Of a DNA stretch of 49,555 bases, positions 38,855-49,366 are shown piece by piece. A model generated the notes under the pieces. That model saw only the letters and a program-made list of their open reading frames with translations, was not told the DNA's origin and did not search any database. Each line of letters begins with the position of its first letter. Within the stretch, counting starts at the first letter, position 1. The position numbers and the translations under genes are program-made. This DNA is from Erysipelotrichaceae bacterium (lineage in GTDB: Bacteria > Bacillota_I > Bacilli_A > Erysipelotrichales > Erysipelotrichaceae), in NCBI GenBank assembly GCA_022772735.1, contig JALEZD010000007.1, positions 1 to 49,555 of the forward strand. The letters are read 5' to 3'.

Positions 38855-39823
38855 ATGAAAAAAGATAGAAAAGTAGTTTTAGTTGGAACTGGCTTTGTCG
38901 GTATGAGTATGGCTTACTCATTTTTAAGTACTGGTGGAGTCGATGAACTAGTATTAATAGATGTAGACACTGAAAAATCAATTGGAGAAACAATGGATTT
39001 ACAACATGGTTTACCTTATGCAAGACAAAACATGGTAATTAAAGCAGGTGGATATGAAGAATGTGCAAATGCAGAGGTTGTTGTAATTACTGCAGGTATA
39101 GCCCAAAAACCTGAACAAACACGATTAGATATGACTGCAACAAACACAAAAATCATGAAATCAATTGTTGAAAATATCATGGCTTCTGGTTTTGATGGAA
39201 TACTAGTAATCGCAAGTAATCCAGTTGATTTAATGTCATATGTAGCTCAAAAAGTTTCAAAACTTCCACCACACAGAGTTATTGGATCTGGTACTATATT
39301 AGATACTGCACGCTTAAGATATTTAATGAGTGAATATCTAGGAATTTCTTCTACAAATATTCATGCGCTAATAATGGGTGAACATGGGGATTCAAGCTTT
39401 GTGCCTTGGACACACGCTTATATTGGAACAAAAAATCTTCTTGAATACCTAGATGAAGAAGGTAGAGATTTACAAGACTTAAATGAAATTTATCATCAAG
39501 TTCAAAGAGCTGCATATGAAATAATAAACAGAAAAAAAGCAACATATTATGGAATTGGTTTATCATTAAACAGATTAGTACATGCAATACTAGATGATGA
39601 AAATGCTATATTAACTCTCTCAGTACTTCAAAATAATGAATTCAATCAAGAAGGCTTATATATTGGTGTACCTGCCCAAATTAATAAACAAGGTATTCAA
39701 AAAATAATAAAATTCGAATTAAATGCGGTTGATCAAGCAAAATTCAATTTAAGTGTTAATACATTAAAAGAAATAATTACTAGTACAATTGATCCTATTT
39801 TAGAAAATGCAAGCACATTATAG
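38855..39823 (+). CDS. ldh: L-lactate dehydrogenase
   Basis: 322 residues. Reduces pyruvate to L-lactate with NADH, regenerating NAD in fermentation. NAD loop GTGFVGMSMA (11-20), mobile loop AQKPEQTR (83-90) where Gln85 marks lactate rather than malate specificity and Arg90 polarises the carbonyl, substrate Arg153 in TARLR, and catalytic His177 in GEHGDSS. GAGG precedes the ATG by nine bases. The region upstream has TAATAT as a possible -10 but no clear Rex or other redox operator that I could see. Confidence 0.95.
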   Translation: MKKDRKVVLVGTGFVGMSMAYSFLSTGGVDELVLIDVDTEKSIGETMDLQHGLPYARQNMVIKAGGYEECANAEVVVITAGIAQKPEQTRLDMTATNTKIMKSIVENIMASGFDGILVIASNPVDLMSYVAQKVSKLPPHRVIGSGTILDTARLRYLMSEYLGISSTNIHALIMGEHGDSSFVPWTHAYIGTKNLLEYLDEEGRDLQDLNEIYHQVQRAAYEIINRKKATYYGIGLSLNRLVHAILDDENAILTLSVLQNNEFNQEGLYIGVPAQINKQGIQKIIKFELNAVDQAKFNLSVNTLKEIITSTIDPILENASTL

Positions 39824-39837
39824 CTTGCATTTTTTTA
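39807..39837 (+). terminator. Terminator of ldh
   Basis: ATGCAAGC (39807-39814), loop ACATTATA, GCTTGCAT (39823-39830), T8. It overlaps the ends of both ldh and the convergent MerR gene. Confidence 0.85.
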
Positions 39838-40669
39838 ATAACTTTTCATTTGTTTCTAAAAGTTTTATGTAGTATTCATCATAGCTTTTACTAAATTTTC
39901 TAATTAATGGTATTGCAATTTCATAATATTTTATCTTTTGCATATAATCTTTTAGACTATCATTAATTTTTTTAGCTAACGACTTATCATACTCTTCACT
40001 CTTTTTATATTCTAAATATAAATTTATATTATCTTTATTTTCATCAAACCACTCATCAAAATTGTTAACTGCATTAATTCTATTTGAAATTATATTTTCT
40101 ACTTCACTTTCTTCCATCTTATACATAGCTTCTTCAAAGTATTCTTTTTCAATTTCATCCATTTCAAATGGAGGTAATGAATTTATATAATCTACATATT
40201 CTTCGAAATATTTCTCTCCTCCATCAACAATTTTCTCATCAAAAAATGGTTTATATGAATAAAATATTAATTGTGCAATTGAATCAGGAAATATGTAATT
40301 TAATCTTTCATGTATTTTTTCTTCTCTTTCAATAACCTTTAGTTTGTCATTTATACAATTAAAATCATACTTTTCATCATAAAACATCTCTAAAATTTCT
40401 TGTTTTTTAACATCAAAATTCAATTTTCTTCTTTTATCTTTTATAATGTCATTTAAATATTTATTATTTTTTAATACATCAATTATTTCATTAATTGTAA
40501 AACCCAATTTTTTAAAAGTATTTACCTTACATAAAATCTCAATATCATTATCATTATAATTTCTATAACCATTTTCATCCCTTATTGGATTAATTATTTT
40601 CTTTTTTTCATAATATTCGATTGCTCTTCGTGTCAAACCAGTTTTTTGTTCTAACTCATTTCTATACAT
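39818..40669 (-). CDS. MerR family transcriptional regulator
   Basis: 283 residues from the ATG at 40669, which has AGGAGGTGG; the reading from 40714 begins in the promoter. The N-terminal winged helix shows ELEQKTGLTRRAIEYYEKKK, GYRNYNDNDIEILCKVNTF and KKLGFTINEIIDVL (1-75). The remaining 200 residues are helical, Glu/Lys-rich, and lack the TipAS or metal-binding Cys pattern, so the ligand is unknown. Its own promoter has the 19-base spacer typical of MerR targets, so it is probably self-regulated. It overlaps the convergent ldh end by six bases. Confidence 0.87.
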   Translation of the reverse strand: MYRNELEQKTGLTRRAIEYYEKKKIINPIRDENGYRNYNDNDIEILCKVNTFKKLGFTINEIIDVLKNNKYLNDIIKDKRRKLNFDVKKQEILEMFYDEKYDFNCINDKLKVIEREEKIHERLNYIFPDSIAQLIFYSYKPFFDEKIVDGGEKYFEEYVDYINSLPPFEMDEIEKEYFEEAMYKMEESEVENIISNRINAVNNFDEWFDENKDNINLYLEYKKSEEYDKSLAKKINDSLKDYMQKIKYYEIAIPLIRKFSKSYDEYYIKLLETNEKLLKKCKL

Positions 40670-40688
40670 ATTGCCACCTCCTAAATAA

Positions 40689-40719
40689 AATCTACTATAG
40701 CACCTAAGGTTCATGTCAA
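40689..40719 (-). promoter_or_regulatory. MerR-type promoter with 19-base spacer and central dyad
   Basis: -35 TTGACA (40719-40714), 19-base spacer, -10 TAGATT (40694-40689). The dyad ACCTAAGGT (40702-40710) lies in the spacer, the place where MerR proteins bind and twist the DNA. Confidence 0.6.
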
Positions 40720-40730
40720 TACAATAAATT

Positions 40731-40761
40731 AAAAAAGCTAAACTTTTTATAGTCTAGCTTT
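40731..40761 (-). terminator. Terminator of the adhesin gene
   Basis: AAAGCTA (40734-40740) pairs with TAGCTTT (40755-40761), with an inner ACT/AGT pair; the minus strand then runs into T6. It includes the adhesin stop. Confidence 0.7.
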
Positions 40762-43700
40762 AATTCTTTTTACATAAAGTGTTGCCATTAAAATTATCAA
40801 TGAAATTTTAAATACAATTAAATGATTATACATGCTATTTGATGAAGCTGTATTTGGAACATCATATTTAAATTCAACAAACTTAACACCTTTTACTATT
40901 TTTACATTTGAATAATATCCAAGATTGATTTCTTCTTTATGTTTAGTCACCTTAACATCCATAACTTTATCAGACAAGTGATATCCTTCTGAAGCTTCAA
41001 TTTCTTTAATTTTATATTCACCATACAATACATCAGTAAATTTAACATATCCATTATCATCACTCATTGATTTTGCAACTTCAACACCTTTTTTATCATA
41101 TAGCGCAAATACTGCACCTTTTATAACATCTCCAGTGTTTCCACCATTTATCTTTTTAAAGATTATCGTCGCTTTAATTTTAGGATTTTCTATAATTTTT
41201 TCTATAACTTTTCCATCTTCATCTATAGAAATATCTATACTCTCCAAGTTATTAGCATACCCTTCTTTTGCCTTTACTTCAATTAATTTATAATCTCCAT
41301 AAATAACATTATCAAATTTAGCTATACCATTTTCATCAGTAACTAATTCATATTTTATTTCATCATTTTGTTTTAATGCAAACTTAGTGTCATTTAACAA
41401 AATCGTATTATCTTCACTATCAACTTTTGTAATCTTAACACTACCTTTTTTGATAGTATTTGTCCAGTTATTGAAATTATAATGTTTTGCCTCTTGATCG
41501 ATATTTATATTTTCAACTCTTGTAGATAAGTTGTAGTTAATTAATGTTGATTCTTCCGATAAAACATATTCTCCATAAGTTACACTAGTAAATGAAACAG
41601 TTCCATCTTCAAAACTTACAGCTCTATATTTAACAACATCATTTTGTTTTAAAACAAATGTTACACCACCCAAAGGTTTTGATTCATCATCTGCATCCAC
41701 CTTTTTAAATGACACACTACCTTTTTTAATAGTATTTGTAATTGTTGATAAATCAATAATTTTCCCATCTTCATCTATCGCAACATCAAATTCTTCTGTT
41801 AAAAGATTATGACTTTCAATAGTTTCTATTTCCTTTAGTTTATACATTCCATAAACAACGTTATTAAATGTTACAACTCCATTATCATCACTAATAGCTA
41901 CATACTTCTCAACACCATTTTGAATCAGTGCAAATTTTACACCTTTCAGTTTTTTAGTTGTATCATCAGTATCAACTTTAACAAATGTTACTTTACCTTT
42001 TTTAATAGTATTTGTTATATTCCCTAAATCTATTGTTTCACCATCATTTTGAACTGAAACATCCTTTTCAACTGTTGAAAGATTATAATTTATTAAAGTA
42101 GAAATTTCTTTTAATTTATAATTTCCATAAACAACATTATTAAATGTAACAACCCCATTTACATCACTTATTGCTTCATATGCTGGTGTGGTAATACCAT
42201 CTTTAAACAATCCAAATTTAACTCCTTGAAGTTTAACATTCTCATCATCTGCATCTACTTTTGTAAGTGTTACTGTTGATTTCTTAAGTCTGTTTGAAAT
42301 ATTTCCCAACTGTATACTATCAGTTGTCAAAACATTTACATCTTTTACATCCGTAGATAAAACATAATTTTCTAAAGTAGAAATTTCTTTTAATTTATAA
42401 TTTCCATAAATAACATTATTAAATGTAACAACCCCATTTACATCACTTATTGCTTCATATGCTGGTGTGGTAATACCATCTTTGAACAATCCAAATTTAA
42501 CTCCTTGAAGTTTAACATTCTCATCATCTGCATCTACTTTTGTAAGTGTTACTGTTGATTTTATTTTTTCATTTGTCCAATCAAAAGTTAACTCTTTTCC
42601 ATTTTCATCTATATTTATATTTTCAACTCTTGCAGAAGATAAATAACCAGTTTTTGCAGTTTTTTCAGATAATACATACACTCCATATTTTACATTTTCA
42701 AAAGTTGCAATACCTTGTTGATTTGTTGTTGCAGTATAAATTTCATTATTACCTTGTTTTAAGACAAAAACAACATCAGATAATGGCGAATTATCCTCAA
42801 CATCTTTTTTGGTTATCGTAACTTTACCTTTTTTGATTGTATTTTCCCAGTCATTTATTTTTATTGTGTTATTATCAGTTATTCTTATCGTTTCTTCTCT
42901 GGTAGATAATATATAACCTTCTTTAGCAGTTTTTTCAATTAATGTATATTCTCCATAAGGTATATCATTAAAAAGTGCTATTCCTTGTTGGTTTGTAGTT
43001 GCACTAAATATTTCTGCATTGTTTTTCTTTAATACAAATACTACATTTTCAATCGCAGACTTTGTATCTGCATCTTTTTTAGTTATTTCAACTTTTCCTT
43101 TAATCTTAGAATTTGTTATTGTGCCCAAATCAATATCAGCACCATTTTCACTAATATTCACAATTTGTTCGTTTGTATTTAGTAAATATCCTTCAATTGT
43201 AGATATTTCTTTTAAAGTGTATTTACCATATGCAACATCATTAAATACTACTTCACCATTAGTATTACTTAAAGCCTCATATACAGCTGTATTATTTCCT
43301 TCCACAAACAATCCAAATTTTACATTTTCTAATTTAATAGTTTGGTTATCTGCATCAACTTTAACAAATTTTACATTTCTCTTTATTGGTTTATTACTTA
43401 TTTCTATAACACCTAAAAACCCCTCACCAACAACTACTTCTGTATTTGTAGTTTGTTTTTCATATCCAAGTGGAGCACGAGTTTCTTCAATTTCATATGT
43501 ATCAAAAGGTAACTCTTCAAATGCTAATTTCCCCTCTTGATTAGTTTTACCACTAAATGTTATAGCTGGATTAGTTTTACTTCTTAAAATAAATTCTGCA
43601 TCTTTTAAAACTATTTTATTTCCACTTTCATCTAAATCAGATGATACTTTAAGTATATTTATATCTCTTTTGTCATAAACTATACCTGCATTTTGAATTG

Positions 43701-46700
43701 CCGTATTTTGTGTTGGATTTAATGAAAAAGCATAACTTACAGCTTTATTGGTATCATTTTGATCTATAGTTTCAATATTATTTGCACTAACATTATTATT
43801 TTGTGATTGCGATGTATAGACTTCATCATCCAATTTTGAAAATCTTACTTTATAATTTCCTCTTTTATAAACAAAAAGTTCATATTTTCCATTAGAATCT
43901 GTTTTTGTAGTAATTGGATTTCCACTGTTATCTAAAACAACTGTATTTGTAGTTGCGTCAATTAACTCTACAGTTCTATTCCCTATTCCTTCTTCATCTT
44001 CTCTTATAAGACCATCTTTGTTTAAATCTTTATATATAATTCCGCTAACTTTATATTTTTCAAAAGTGATACTTACACTGTTTCCTTCTGAATAAAGCAC
44101 CCCATCTGTTGATACTGCACTTGAATTTACTGCGATATCTTTAGGGTTTAAATTTTCATTATATGGTATCTTTGAAGGGATAATTATTTTAACCTCTTCT
44201 TTTGATGCAATAGATTTTCCTGGTTTTAATTGTAATTTAAAACTCTTTACAAGTGAAAAATCACTTACTTCAGATTCTTTTACCCAAGCACCATCTCTAA
44301 CACTTGCCAAATCACTTCCTTGAGGTGTAAGTTGGTAAAAGACTTCAAATCTTTCCATAGCAGAAGCATTTTCAGCTAAAGATTCAATACTTCTAGAAAG
44401 TGGTGTATAAAATTGTGAATTCCTAGCAGGATATTCACCTTTTTGATTTGAAACAATACTATGATCTCCAACATATGGAAGTGTATCAATTACATACGCC
44501 TTTGTTGCTTCGGCAATGGTATTATTAAATACAGAAATTGTATAATAAAATTCTTCACCTAAATCACCTGTCGCAAACATACTCATAGTATTTTTTTCAT
44601 ATCCAACCTGCTTTTTAACTATTAATTCTAAAGGTGGAATATAATTAACAAACGAATATACATTTAAATATTTTTCATTTCTATTTCCATCACCATCTAA
44701 ATCTAATGCATCTACATATGCCCTACTATCATAAAGTGGAGTTATAACATTGTTTTTATCATATACAAAATAACTATCAATTCGATTATTTCCTCTTTCT
44801 GCATATGGTGTAATTTGTATTTTTGTAGAAACATAAAAATCATCTAGTGAATCATCTGCAGAAATAAATTCTGGTATTGTATAAATAACAGCTGTTCTAC
44901 CTGTATTTTTAAAGTTTTCAATTACTTCAGGTTCTCCAACATTGTTTTTATACCAAGATTGACTATTTTTCCTTACATAGTTAAATGCTGGAGGTAATAA
45001 TTGAATTAATTTACCTGATATTGGTTCTGATGCAAATGGTCCCCATTCACCATTACTTCTTCTTAATGAAACCCAAGACGCATAGTCTAAATATGTTCCA
45101 GATGCACTATAAGGAACAGTTTGATTACCACTAGCATCTAAATCTGATTTTGGAGAAATTGGTTGCAAGCTAGTATACGCCCAAGCAGCATTATCCTTTG
45201 CAGTATATTGTGCATCTTCAACACCATTATACAATCTTACATTCCTTACTAAAGCTTCAGAAGTACCTCTATATTCTTGCCTACTTAAATATGTTCCATT
45301 GCTAAACTTTTCCACTTCTTCACTACTTGGGAATGTTTGTGTATAAAAGCTCATTAATGTATTATTTAATCTTATTGGTGATTCAAATGCTAATTCTAAT
45401 TTTACATATTGACCAGAAGTATCGTTAATTTCAACTTTTTGTCTATATTGAATATTTTCTGCAATAACAACTTTGCTTCCATCTCTTTTTATACCGTAAA
45501 GCTTATTAGGTTGAGTATTAAATTTATTTATAACATTATCTATTTCTTCTTGTCTTCTTTCTGGTGAAAGATTACTATTTCTACTAGTAACATTCCCTAA
45601 TTGGAAATATTTATAATATGTTCTGTTATCATTTGCAACTGTTGATAATATATCTGTAACACCATAAACATCACTGACAATACCGTTTTCTTTATTATCA
45701 AATGCAGAACCATTATTATCATTATAAAGATTTATTGTATAGAACAATCCATTTTCAGTTTGTTCTTCTCGTTTGTCATATATTTTTCCATCTACAATTG
45801 TATAATGTCCTTCATATAGCCAATATCTTATTGGTGTTTCACCTGAAGAATTTAAATTATCCTTCCATATACCAAAACCTCCACCTGGAGTAAAATAAAT
45901 TGGTTTAAATCGTATTTTAATATTTCTTTCAGGTAACTCTCTTTGTCCATCTAATCCAAAATCGACATAATATTTTACTGGTATATCATATATGGTATTA
46001 AATTCTTTATTTTTAAAATTTAAATTAATTGTAAAAGTTTTTCCAGGTTTATATCTTATCCACCATGGTTCTTCAACTCTTGGATTATTAATAAAATATG
46101 TAAGTTCTCTTGTTGATGAGTCAAATGTAAAGTTATTATCCGTTATATTTGGTTCCACACCTTCTGGCAATGTTGCTACAACCTTTAAGTTTGCAGGATA
46201 CACATAACTAATAGTCCCAGTTGTTCCTGATGGAATTTCAACAAACGGTTGAAATGCTACAGGTACTACTCTACCCGTATTTCCTGTAGTAGTTTCTCCT
46301 GCAGTAGAATTAACATCATATTCCCAAATAGCATTATGTCTATATGTATTATTTGTTTCATCTATTTTAAACCATCTATTTTCATTATATCCTCTAGCTT
46401 CTGAATCTCCATATGAAAATTCTTGTTTTAATGCTTTATAAGTTTTTTCGCCAGAATAAAGTTTATTTAAACCTAAAATAGTTGCTACATTCGTATTTGG
46501 ATCTGCATTATATTTATCAGCCACATCTTTTGCGTCAACTATATCTAATTTTACAGTTATAGTATCATTATTTCTTGTTGGATCTTCTTTAAAGCTAAAA
46601 GGAAAAGGAAAAGTCATTCTAGTTCCACCAGTCAACTCTTCGAATTTATATATTACATACCAATTATCATTATCTTCAGCTTTTATAGTAGAAAATGCCT

Positions 46701-46995
46701 TTTGTGAATCAATAAAAGTTGGTTTATTTATAATATTAAGTTTGGGTACAGTCAATACTACCCATGGATTTACTATTGATGCTCCTGTACCTGATATTGA
46801 TATATCAGCAGCTGCATTAATTGGTGTTTTTACCCAAAAGTCTGTTTTATCATTTATACTTCCATCACCTTCTAAGTTGATGATTTGAAGTGTTACATTC
46901 AAAGTATCTTCCGCCTTCACATCAGTAGCCGGAAAAAATATCCCCATACACATTAAAAAACATAATAAAATCTTAATAAGTTTGTAGTCATTCAT
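40747..46995 (-). CDS. Giant Cna-B repeat surface adhesin with VPNTAS sorting signal
   Basis: About 2082 residues from the ATG at 46995 (a TTG reading from 47019 is possible; the ribosome site is weak). A signal peptide ends near VKA-ED (about 28). Residues to about 840 are a large beta-rich head with no family I can name; LELIVKKQVGYEKN begins a DUF11-like domain, then an SdrD B-like domain (GIIYKDLNKDGLIREDEEG, about 975-1040). Ten Cna-B/SpaA-like repeats of about 93 residues follow (about 1110-2030), each with VKVD/ITKKD (Lys), YGxYxLxE (Glu) and a late TNTI-type Asn, as expected for intramolecular isopeptide bonds. The end is VPNTASS, a hydrophobic helix and KRIKARL, a wall-sorting signal. 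Probably a host-binding stalk or pilus-like protein. Confidence 0.9.
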   Translation of the reverse strand: MNDYKLIKILLCFLMCMGIFFPATDVKAEDTLNVTLQIINLEGDGSINDKTDFWVKTPINAAADISISGTGASIVNPWVVLTVPKLNIINKPTFIDSQKAFSTIKAEDNDNWYVIYKFEELTGGTRMTFPFPFSFKEDPTRNNDTITVKLDIVDAKDVADKYNADPNTNVATILGLNKLYSGEKTYKALKQEFSYGDSEARGYNENRWFKIDETNNTYRHNAIWEYDVNSTAGETTTGNTGRVVPVAFQPFVEIPSGTTGTISYVYPANLKVVATLPEGVEPNITDNNFTFDSSTRELTYFINNPRVEEPWWIRYKPGKTFTINLNFKNKEFNTIYDIPVKYYVDFGLDGQRELPERNIKIRFKPIYFTPGGGFGIWKDNLNSSGETPIRYWLYEGHYTIVDGKIYDKREEQTENGLFYTINLYNDNNGSAFDNKENGIVSDVYGVTDILSTVANDNRTYYKYFQLGNVTSRNSNLSPERRQEEIDNVINKFNTQPNKLYGIKRDGSKVVIAENIQYRQKVEINDTSGQYVKLELAFESPIRLNNTLMSFYTQTFPSSEEVEKFSNGTYLSRQEYRGTSEALVRNVRLYNGVEDAQYTAKDNAAWAYTSLQPISPKSDLDASGNQTVPYSASGTYLDYASWVSLRRSNGEWGPFASEPISGKLIQLLPPAFNYVRKNSQSWYKNNVGEPEVIENFKNTGRTAVIYTIPEFISADDSLDDFYVSTKIQITPYAERGNNRIDSYFVYDKNNVITPLYDSRAYVDALDLDGDGNRNEKYLNVYSFVNYIPPLELIVKKQVGYEKNTMSMFATGDLGEEFYYTISVFNNTIAEATKAYVIDTLPYVGDHSIVSNQKGEYPARNSQFYTPLSRSIESLAENASAMERFEVFYQLTPQGSDLASVRDGAWVKESEVSDFSLVKSFKLQLKPGKSIASKEEVKIIIPSKIPYNENLNPKDIAVNSSAVSTDGVLYSEGNSVSITFEKYKVSGIIYKDLNKDGLIREDEEGIGNRTVELIDATTNTVVLDNSGNPITTKTDSNGKYELFVYKRGNYKVRFSKLDDEVYTSQSQNNNVSANNIETIDQNDTNKAVSYAFSLNPTQNTAIQNAGIVYDKRDINILKVSSDLDESGNKIVLKDAEFILRSKTNPAITFSGKTNQEGKLAFEELPFDTYEIEETRAPLGYEKQTTNTEVVVGEGFLGVIEISNKPIKRNVKFVKVDADNQTIKLENVKFGLFVEGNNTAVYEALSNTNGEVVFNDVAYGKYTLKEISTIEGYLLNTNEQIVNISENGADIDLGTITNSKIKGKVEITKKDADTKSAIENVVFVLKKNNAEIFSATTNQQGIALFNDIPYGEYTLIEKTAKEGYILSTREETIRITDNNTIKINDWENTIKKGKVTITKKDVEDNSPLSDVVFVLKQGNNEIYTATTNQQGIATFENVKYGVYVLSEKTAKTGYLSSARVENINIDENGKELTFDWTNEKIKSTVTLTKVDADDENVKLQGVKFGLFKDGITTPAYEAISDVNGVVTFNNVIYGNYKLKEISTLENYVLSTDVKDVNVLTTDSIQLGNISNRLKKSTVTLTKVDADDENVKLQGVKFGLFKDGITTPAYEAISDVNGVVTFNNVVYGNYKLKEISTLINYNLSTVEKDVSVQNDGETIDLGNITNTIKKGKVTFVKVDTDDTTKKLKGVKFALIQNGVEKYVAISDDNGVVTFNNVVYGMYKLKEIETIESHNLLTEEFDVAIDEDGKIIDLSTITNTIKKGSVSFKKVDADDESKPLGGVTFVLKQNDVVKYRAVSFEDGTVSFTSVTYGEYVLSEESTLINYNLSTRVENINIDQEAKHYNFNNWTNTIKKGSVKITKVDSEDNTILLNDTKFALKQNDEIKYELVTDENGIAKFDNVIYGDYKLIEVKAKEGYANNLESIDISIDEDGKVIEKIIENPKIKATIIFKKINGGNTGDVIKGAVFALYDKKGVEVAKSMSDDNGYVKFTDVLYGEYKIKEIEASEGYHLSDKVMDVKVTKHKEEINLGYYSNVKIVKGVKFVEFKYDVPNTASSNSMYNHLIVFKISLIILMATLYVKRIKARL
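42094..42561 (-). repeat. Near-identical 189-bp direct repeats within the adhesin gene
   Basis: 42094-42282 and 42373-42561, offset 279 bases (93 codons), differ at only two positions by eye. They encode most of the fifth and sixth Cna-B repeats (LQGVKFGLFKDGITTPAYEA in both), while other repeats have diverged widely. This marks a recent duplication or gene conversion. Confidence 0.85.
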
Positions 46996-47056
46996 AATAT
47001 GCCCCCAGTTTCCTACCAAACAGATATTATATACTATAATTTTATAATAAAAACTT

Positions 47057-47160: not shown

Positions 47161-47853
47161 ATGGATATTAATATTTTGATTGCTGAAGATGATAAAGATA
47201 TTGTTGAATTATTATCTTTATATCTAGAAAATGAAGGATATAAAATTTACACCGCTCGTAATGGAGAAGAAGCATATGAAAAGTTTATTGTAGAAGACAT
47301 TAATGTATGTATTTTTGACATTATGATGCCAAAATTAAATGGATATGATTTAGTTAAAAAAATCAGAGAAACAAGTCAAGTTCCAATTTTAATTTTAAGT
47401 GCAAAAAATCAAGACAATGATAAAATAATAGGATTAAATATTGGTGCTGATGACTATATGAGCAAGCCATTTAATCCTCTTGAAGTAATTGCTAGAATAA
47501 ATGCGATGGTTAGAAGAAACTACGATTACAATACCGAAGAAAAATCAAAAATTTTAAACTTAAGTTCAATAAAAATAAATACTGAAACATTATCTGTATT
47601 TAAAAATGATGAACCTGTATATTTAACACCAACTGAATTAAAAATTCTTATGACATTAATAAAAGAACCAGGAAAAATAATCACAAAGGTTCAACTATAT
47701 AAAAACATCAACGGTGAATATATTGAAACAGATGATAATACAATAATGGTGCATATTTCTAGATTAAGAGATAAAATTGAAGATGACCCAAGAAATCCAA
47801 AATATATAAAAACTATAAGAGGCTTAGGATATAAATTTGAAAACAATGATTAA
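47161..47853 (+). CDS. OmpR-family response regulator
   Basis: 230 residues: receiver domain (1-118) with acidic pocket AEDDKD (8-13), phosphorylated Asp53 in IFDIMMPKLNG, Thr/Ser and Lys in ILSAKNQDND and SKPFNPLEV; then a winged-helix output domain (about 130-228) with LTPTELKILMTL and the recognition helix near VMVHISRLRDKIEDDP and KTIRGLGYKF. AGGAGA precedes the ATG. It pairs with the overlapping sensor kinase. The adhesin gene lies divergently and is a candidate target. Confidence 0.94.
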   Translation: MDINILIAEDDKDIVELLSLYLENEGYKIYTARNGEEAYEKFIVEDINVCIFDIMMPKLNGYDLVKKIRETSQVPILILSAKNQDNDKIIGLNIGADDYMSKPFNPLEVIARINAMVRRNYDYNTEEKSKILNLSSIKINTETLSVFKNDEPVYLTPTELKILMTLIKEPGKIITKVQLYKNINGEYIETDDNTIMVHISRLRDKIEDDPRNPKYIKTIRGLGYKFENND

Positions 47854-49366
47854 AAAAAGACACAGACTACTCACAACACTTATATTTTATTTTAGTTTAC
47901 TTTCTATTCTTTCAGTAATTTTATTTGTTTTTGTAAACCAAAATGTTGCAATGTTTATTTCTGATAGATTGTGGGAGTTTTCTAATACTTCTATAGATAA
48001 TTACATTCATGTTTTAGAAAAAGGAGAATTTGATAAATTACCAGAAAAAAGACTATTTGGTGATAATGGATATTATGATATTTTAGATGAAAATCTAAAT
48101 ACTATATACTCTTCAAAAGAAGTTCATACTTATTCACCAATACAAATAAAATATATTTACAATGTTGATGATACATTCTATTCATTATATACATTAAATG
48201 ACAAGATAAAATTGATTTTTAAACCATCAAATGGTGATGAAGAATACTATTATGTGATAAATGAAAAAAATGAGGTTTTATCTACTGATGATAAAAACAG
48301 TCCAACTCACTTTAGCCAAGAAGAATTAGACTTAATTTATAAATATCACTATAGTACTGATAATTTATATCTAAAAGAATTTACATATAATAATAAAAAA
48401 CACTACTTAATAGGTCTTGAAGCAAAAATAACTGAAACTTATTCAAAATATGATATTGCGGTTAAAGTTACATTTGCAATTCTTTCAATAATTTATATAT
48501 CTACAATGGTTATTCTTGTATACATATTAAACAAAAAGATAAATAGACCTTTATATAAACTTAAAGAAGCAATCATGAAATATGAAACTAACATTGATAA
48601 TATTAATGTTGATGATCAAGACATAAGCGAATTATATGAAATTACCAAACAATTTAATATATTGACAAATAAACTTAAAAAGATGGATAGTATTAAAAAA
48701 CAATATGAAGAAGATAGACAAATTATGTTAGCAAATATTTCTCATGACTTAAAAACTCCAATAACAATTATTCAAGGTTATTCAAAGGCAATTGTCGATG
48801 GAGTTATTAAAGGTGATGAAATAATTAAAAAGAATAAAACTATTTATGATAAAACAGTTTATCTTAATGAACTTGTGAATACTTTCCATGAATTTAGTAA
48901 ATTAGAACACCCTGAATTTTCTTATGACTTTAAAAATACAGATATGTCTGAATATATAAGAGAATATTTAGTAAATAAATACGATGATTTAGAAGCACAT
49001 AAAATAACATTAGATATAGATATACCAGAAACATCTGTAAATTTGATGATTGATAAAAATCAATTCAAACGTGTTTTAGAGAACATAATTAATAATGCGA
49101 TAAAATACAATGAAGATGGAATCACTATAAAAATATTTTTAAACAAGTCAAAATTAGTAATTGCCAATAGTGGTAATAAAATTGATAAAAAAATTATAAA
49201 AGAAATCTTCAAACCATTTTCTATGGCTGATGAATCTCGTGGAAGTGGTGGTTCTGGTTTAGGATTAGCAATAGTAAAAAAGATTATTGATGATCATAAT
49301 TTTAAAATTTCTTTAGATACATCTAATAATTTTTATAAAGTTTCATTTGTAATTACATTCAAATAA
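47846..49366 (+). CDS. Sensor histidine kinase
   Basis: 506 residues from the ATG at 47846, overlapping the regulator stop by eight bases; an in-frame TTG at 47837 with AGGA before it is an alternative start. Two membrane helices (about 8-33 and 207-230) frame an extracellular domain of about 170 residues of unknown ligand. HAMP-like linker, then HisKA with the phosphorylated His300 in ANISHDLKTP, N box ENIINNAIKYN, and G boxes GSGGSGLGLAIV. It phosphorylates the regulator encoded before it. Confidence 0.93.
   Translation: MIKKRHRLLTTLIFYFSLLSILSVILFVFVNQNVAMFISDRLWEFSNTSIDNYIHVLEKGEFDKLPEKRLFGDNGYYDILDENLNTIYSSKEVHTYSPIQIKYIYNVDDTFYSLYTLNDKIKLIFKPSNGDEEYYYVINEKNEVLSTDDKNSPTHFSQEELDLIYKYHYSTDNLYLKEFTYNNKKHYLIGLEAKITETYSKYDIAVKVTFAILSIIYISTMVILVYILNKKINRPLYKLKEAIMKYETNIDNINVDDQDISELYEITKQFNILTNKLKKMDSIKKQYEEDRQIMLANISHDLKTPITIIQGYSKAIVDGVIKGDEIIKKNKTIYDKTVYLNELVNTFHEFSKLEHPEFSYDFKNTDMSEYIREYLVNKYDDLEAHKITLDIDIPETSVNLMIDKNQFKRVLENIINNAIKYNEDGITIKIFLNKSKLVIANSGNKIDKKIIKEIFKPFSMADESRGSGGSGLGLAIVKKIIDDHNFKISLDTSNNFYKVSFVITFK

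Follow-up and report, generated by a model that had tools for sequence, protein, structure and literature searches.

A V-P-x-T-[GSA] sorting-signal dialect and class-B-like sortases in a genus of Erysipelotrichaceae

Class B sortases are represented by the SrtB-IsdC systems of Staphylococcus aureus and Bacillus anthracis and by SrtB of Clostridioides difficile, the sole sortase of that species. In the literature excerpts used here, the single class B sortase of C. difficile has seven predicted substrates (PMC4155245), the class B substrate motifs NPQTN and NPKSS have a residue other than Gly after the Thr or Ser (PMC11987632), and NSKTA is tentatively assigned to SrtB (PMC3208642). The excerpts also give LPNTA and LPNTAS as motifs of the class D system of B. 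anthracis (sortase SrtC, substrates BasH and BasI; PMC3208642, PMC4498605), and IPQTG and VPDTG as those of the pneumococcal pilins RrgB and RrgC, respectively (PMC5640630). Published papers mention sortase together with VPDTG or VPETG; our literature search returned no paper pairing VPNTA with a sortase and none pairing VPXTG with a sorting signal.

We analyzed a 49,555-nt stretch of DNA from an Erysipelotrichaceae bacterium (the window), which encodes a large adhesin ending in VPNTASS, together with the rest of its genome (the source genome) and two genomes of the same genus, G001 and G002. Completeness is 97.5% for the source genome (27 contigs), 80% for G001, and 98% for G002. The sortases of the source genome are nearest to class B by both NCBIfam models and PDB structures, and the residue after Thr can differ from Gly, as in the class B excerpts. 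The class B motifs in those excerpts start with N, S, P, or Q, whereas the tails of the genus start with V, I, or A; the NCBIfam class B model named for LPKTx has a hydrophobic first residue, like the genus tails. The source genome is also unlike the class B systems compared in having four sortases and no fewer than 13 tails. The adhesin motif has the P-N-T-A core in common with class D of B. anthracis but starts with Val instead of Leu; moreover, no class D sortase was detected in the genus, and Ala alternates with Gly and Ser in genus paralogues. RrgB and RrgC, as excerpted, have I or V first, as do most genus tails, but are class C pilin substrates with Gly after Thr, unlike the adhesin.

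The adhesin and its C-terminal tail

The adhesin gene (46995-40747, minus strand) encodes a surface protein with SpaA/Cna_B repeats, as judged from its translation and Pfam matches. The mechanically called open reading frame starts with TTG at 47019, ends at 40747 on the minus strand, and has 2090 residues. The ATG at 46995, which gives a protein of 2082 aa, is the likelier start; GGGGG lies six bases ahead of it. A signal peptide-like stretch was recognized by eye at the N-terminus of the translation. Next comes a head of some 760 residues (40-800 in the numbering of the TTG-started frame; 44620..46902, minus strand), followed by the repeats, which gave ten stretches with the Pfam SpaA model (PF17802; 482 bits) and whose nearest solved sequence is the collagen adhesion protein 6fwv. 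The repeat domains are common to the adhesin and the SpaA/Cna_B collagen-adhesin family, whereas the head holds none of the best domain or structure stretches listed. When the head was searched against 41 genomes, matches came from the source genome only, with no relative in the 40 others; besides the adhesin itself, it matched a protein on contig 27 (31%, E 4e-58) and, partially, contig 5 (E 3e-5). The contig 27 paralogue is the sole full-length relative of the adhesin found in this search, with 32% identity across 1,511 aligned columns. The NCBIfam model for LPXTG-anchored pilins scored 32.7 bits on the adhesin against a cut-off of 95.

On the minus strand, positions 40860-40843 read GTT CCA AAT ACA GCT TCA, that is, VPNTAS (40843..40860), and Ser comes next; from the sequence and the other genus tails, cleavage is predicted between T and A. 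The hydrophobic stretch LIVFKISLIILMATLYV (40771..40821) and the basic tail KRIKARL (40750..40770) follow in the translation of the same strand. The tail therefore reads VPNTASSNSMYNH-LIVFKISLIILMATLYV-KRIKARL-stop, with 37 residues from the V to the end, within the C-terminal sequence VPNTASSNSMYNHLIVFKISLIILMATLYVKRIKARL. This is the layout of a sorting signal: an x-P-x-T-[G/A/S] motif, a hydrophobic stretch, and a basic C-terminus. The sequence-only reading had described this same ending, with Val and not Leu as first motif residue, and its letters and position were confirmed in both respects. The hydrophobic stretch contains a Lys, and the Pfam LPXTG anchor model was not among the adhesin matches at E <= 0.1. 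When the adhesin was left out and a profile was built from 12 of the 16 other tails described below, the adhesin ranked first of 141 window frames (E 0.029; runner-up 0.088), and 1 of 2000 shuffled adhesin tails reached the real score (1992 of the 2000 were reported). The score gives modest support for a sorting signal, and the position of the motif and the paralogues give stronger support.

Tails of the same layout in the genus

Tails were collected by patterns, a profile, and a domain model. The pattern [LIVMF]P[ND]TA gave 11 matches in the source genome and its reversed form none; three of the 11 were C-terminal tails with a hydrophobic stretch, namely the adhesin and two proteins on contig 21. 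The pattern V/I/M-P-N-T-[small]-[ST] gave 10 matches versus 9 for the reversed pattern in the source genome, 5 versus 2 in G001, and 3 versus 5 in G002, with tails accounting for 8 of 10, 1 of 5, and 0 of 3 matches, respectively; a narrower pattern gave 6 versus 0. VPNTA as a motif of its own was considered and rejected, as the raw matches of the wider pattern are not clearly above those of the reversed one and only a C-terminal position before a hydrophobic stretch separates them. With [LF]PxTG, the source genome gave 10 matches versus 18 for the reversed pattern, and none of the 10 was a C-terminal tail. The invariant P-N-T in the first nine tails is uninformative, having been selected by the pattern. 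One of the tails, VPNTST on contig 22, belongs to a frame cut by the contig start.

A profile of the nine tails, run on 37 genomes, gave 13 matches in the source genome at E <= 10, of which eight were rows of the profile. Additional tails were found on contig 23 (VPNTSY), contig 27 (APYTGT), and contig 12 (VPDTSS), and two matches (contig 27:16171 and contig 17:31641, a short frame) were not tails. The tail counts below leave aside weak matches of this profile in G001 (one) and G002 (five). The short frame on contig 17 (31641-31682) resembles the contig 22 tail (NTSTQANIITNSIY) with the rest of the protein absent, and is probably a decayed copy. In the three genus genomes together, the NCBIfam LPXTG model had 22 matches at E <= 10, six of which exceeded the cut-off; of the 13 tails in the source genome, four exceeded it. 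Because it also matched all 14 control genomes at E <= 10 (9 of 14 over the cut-off), this model is unspecific unless the C-terminus is inspected. Each end was therefore read: 10 of the 22 matches had a motif before a hydrophobic end, and five of these were new, namely VPDTGD on contig 7, VVETGN on contig 17, VPQTGV and VVNTSE in G001, and VPNTGD in G002. VVETGN, VVNTSE, and VPQTGV are the least certain as tails, all three being under the cut-off and the first two lacking the proline.

In total, 17 tails were obtained: 13 in the source genome, three in G001, and one in G002. The first motif residue is V in 14, I in two, A in one, and L in none; the second is P in 15 and V in two; and the residue after Thr is G in seven, S in seven, and A in three. 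These counts are biased in that the patterns required V/I/M (or L/F) and P-N-T or P-D-T, whereas the LPXTG model did not.

Five tandem surface-protein genes on contig 21 end in IPNTGS, VPNTSS, VPNTGS, VPNTAT, and VPNTAT. In four of these proteins that were scanned, the SHIRT domain was found in three, and the Pfam LPXTG anchor model passed on the VPNTGS protein (21.4 bits versus 20) and was absent in the other three. The paralogue of the adhesin on contig 27 is the protein that ends in APYTGT. Since the residue following the presumed cleavage site switches among G, S, and A both from gene to gene in the array and from the adhesin to its paralogue, Ala is not distinctive: as far as these sequences tell, it is one of three interchangeable letters and not a mark of class D (LPNTA). 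The sequence-only reading had suggested searching the genome for further [LV]PNTA proteins; two more such tails do exist, both on contig 21, but as members of a set in which Ala alternates with Gly and Ser. The array extends over about 44.5-55.0 kb of contig 21, and each tail in it is preceded by a short cysteine segment, e.g., CADEGKVWNESKQ (C-x-D-E-G-K-V-W-N-E). Outside the genus, tails were sampled from 12 weak profile matches. In G036, of the same order, five tails were read; they have T-G-D, T-S-D, or T-A-D, and the usual proline is missing from some. The position following Thr is thus variable in that genome as well.

Because the 17 tails over three genomes share one layout, we read them as sorting signals. 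The adhesin tail might instead only fix the protein in the membrane, or be a sorting signal that has decayed, with the protein left uncut. Other proteins of these genomes, such as the VAKNTTN proteins, do have a hydrophobic stretch and a basic tail without the motif, and both the Lys in the stretch and the modest leave-one-out score would fit such a state. However, all 17 tails, which were reached through two patterns, the profile, and the LPXTG model, have the motif equally far from the C-terminus, and sortases are present in the genome. We therefore consider an uncut protein improbable.

Sortases of the genus

A whole-genome search with PF04203 found a sortase in 51 of 60 genomes. The source genome was among them, with two sortases on contigs 20 and 22, and none was found in G001 or G002; a search with TIGR01076 returned the same two places only. 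A profile of 19 sortases, which includes the contig 20 and contig 22 enzymes as rows, found four sortases in the source genome (contigs 22, 20, 11, and 5), two in G001, and two in G002, with E-values of 8e-62 to 4e-43 for the eight. A fifth, partial match in the source genome (contig 1, E 0.13) was left out of this count. The sequence-only reading had suggested a dedicated sortase elsewhere in the genome and named a genome devoid of sortase genes as a refutation; with four sortases detected, that refuting case did not arise. The notion that tails are present while the same-genus genomes are sortase-free was rejected, the PF04203 result being a false negative according to the 19-sortase profile. 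When PF04203 was run on the proteins, the contig 5 kind passed in all three genomes (30.6-31.2 bits versus 26.6), and the contig 11 kind in none (26.0 bits once and no match twice). Thus, the miss is due partly to the first look of the search and partly to the model itself.

The two sortases missed by the PF04203 whole-genome search, at contig 11:8283-9011 and contig 5:53668-54345, are the core sortases of the genus. Each has one orthologue in G001 and one in G002, with 55-58% identity and in starred clades of a 25-row tree. A gene of 180-183 residues directly adjoins the contig 11-kind sortase in all three genomes, and near it are what we take to be psuG-like genes in the source genome and G001. 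The contig 5-kind sortase is accompanied by a presumably pyrR-like gene in all three genomes and, on its other flank, by a presumed transglycosylase-like gene in the source genome and G002. By eye, the N-terminus of the contig 5 sortase resembles a lipoprotein signal (LNLFIVSC-S); a similar start was seen in a sortase of G004 (LLALCSC-Q) and not in the G001 and G002 orthologues.

All eight genus sortases have the His and Cys motifs (GH and TC). The NCBIfam class B model TIGR03064 was the best match of all eight, at 76-135 bits against a cut-off of 153.75, and the class B model named for LPKTxAVK was second best in six. Against solved structures, the 19-row profile matched 15 sequences at E <= 2e-51, all named sortase B, SrtB family, or by locus only, whereas entries named sortase, sortase A, class C, or LPXTG-site transpeptidase were at 2.5e-5 or weaker. 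The contig 20, contig 11, and contig 5 enzymes, searched singly, gave the same sortase B chains. By sequence the genus sortases would be divergent members of class B or a sister group, and 'class-B-like' is the safer name.

These results bear on the proposal of the sequence-only reading that a dedicated class D-type sortase, like B. anthracis SrtC, anchors an alanine form of the LPNTA type. The comparison was a fair lead, since LPNTA and LPNTAS, the B. anthracis class D motifs in the excerpts of PMC3208642 and PMC4498605, differ from the adhesin motif in the first residue only. However, the class D model NF033746 matched none of the three genus genomes at E <= 10, although the initial step of this kind of whole-genome search is able to overlook sortases, as happened with PF04203; as a control, it matched 5 of 14 genomes, one over the cut-off. 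Nor did any of the eight genus sortases match it at E <= 0.1; the detected enzymes match class B structures instead. None of the 17 tails has Leu first, and A, G, and S alternate both among the contig 21 genes and between the adhesin and the contig 27 paralogue. This comparison supported neither the analogy with class D nor an enzyme reserved for the alanine variant, and we regard anchoring by such an enzyme as extremely unlikely.

The two remaining sortases of the source genome, on contigs 20 and 22, are 72% identical, carry GH and TLVTC motifs, and are encoded downstream of ParA genes. ParB was identified by Pfam on contig 20 and by a below-cut-off match on contig 22, and a Zeta toxin gene is present on contig 20. 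Both clusters consist of ParA, a ParB-like gene, the diverged class-B-like sortase gene, and then a gene for a membrane protein containing an Ig-like region. The two clusters probably represent a single type of mobile element present twice; no relaxase or secretion gene was identified on either contig. Such enzymes could anchor the VPNT proteins, in which case a mobile element would decorate or take over the host surface. This idea draws on the catalytic motifs, the ParA genes upstream, and the ParB or weak ParB matches, on a C. difficile plasmid that encodes a class B sortase next to a MobP2 relaxase, and on the VPNTST tail of contig 22, the one contig on which a tail and a sortase were found together, 16 kb apart. 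Against it, the mobility of these contigs is putative, and G001 and G002 have VPxT tails with only the two core kinds of sortase detected, and these do not group with the contig 20 and contig 22 enzymes in the 25-row tree. This alternative is therefore unlikely.

A scan of genome contigs with an alignment of two sortases found no relative, and neither did a scan of viral contigs for sortase relatives; a second genome-contig scan gave 80 loci of distant relatives with 23-32% identity. Distant relatives were also found on plasmids of Clostridioides, Enterocloster, and others (8 records, 23-28% identity), and phage records gave one distant match. Our literature search found no paper joining a class B sortase with an integrative conjugative element.

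Probable anchoring of the adhesin by a core sortase

VPNTASS, the hydrophobic stretch, and KRIKARL probably constitute a conventional sorting signal in the dialect of the genus, served by a core class-B-type sortase. We favor the core sortases because G001 and G002 have VPxT-type tails, yet no sortases other than the two core kinds were detected in them. The adhesin would be exported via its putative signal peptide and retained in the membrane through its hydrophobic C-terminal segment; one of the core pair (contig 11 or contig 5) would then cut between Thr and Ala, and the cut adhesin would be joined to the peptidoglycan. The tail, the dialect, and the sortases with His and Cys motifs are apparent from the sequences, and from these we infer the cleavage, the cut site, the responsible sortase, and the wall attachment, pairing enzyme and signal by co-occurrence. 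The Lys in the hydrophobic stretch, the below-cut-off scores of the NCBIfam class B model, the N, S, P, or Q in place of V at the start of the class B motifs from papers, and the location of tails and sortases mostly on separate contigs, with no detected sortase on the contig of the adhesin, count against anchoring by a core sortase. So does the low specificity of the LPXTG model that supplied part of the tails. Furthermore, another sortase could be missing from the set, because the source genome is 97.5% complete.

What is new is the V-P-x-T dialect in genomes where only class-B-like sortases were detected; we did not find this dialect described for class B. It is conceivable, though somewhat short of probable, that this is a lineage with class-B-like sortases only, two of which act as housekeepers for a dozen or more V-P-x-T-[GSA] proteins, and the diverged mobile-element sortases may share substrates with them. 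If class-B-like enzymes do serve V-P-x-T signals as general housekeepers, the idea that class B specializes in N/S/P-P-x-T motifs would have to be relaxed. Otherwise, the adhesin would be an ordinary sortase substrate. The dialect adds to the sorting motifs that searches should cover, and a sortase survey by PF04203 whole-genome search alone would report sortase-free genomes.

The adhesin gene is neighbored by a gene for a MerR-type regulator (39818-40714), and genes for a lactate/malate dehydrogenase and a trypsin-like protease lie on that side. On the opposite flank, a response regulator and a histidine kinase are encoded at 47161-49366, divergent from the adhesin gene, and this two-component pair may control it.
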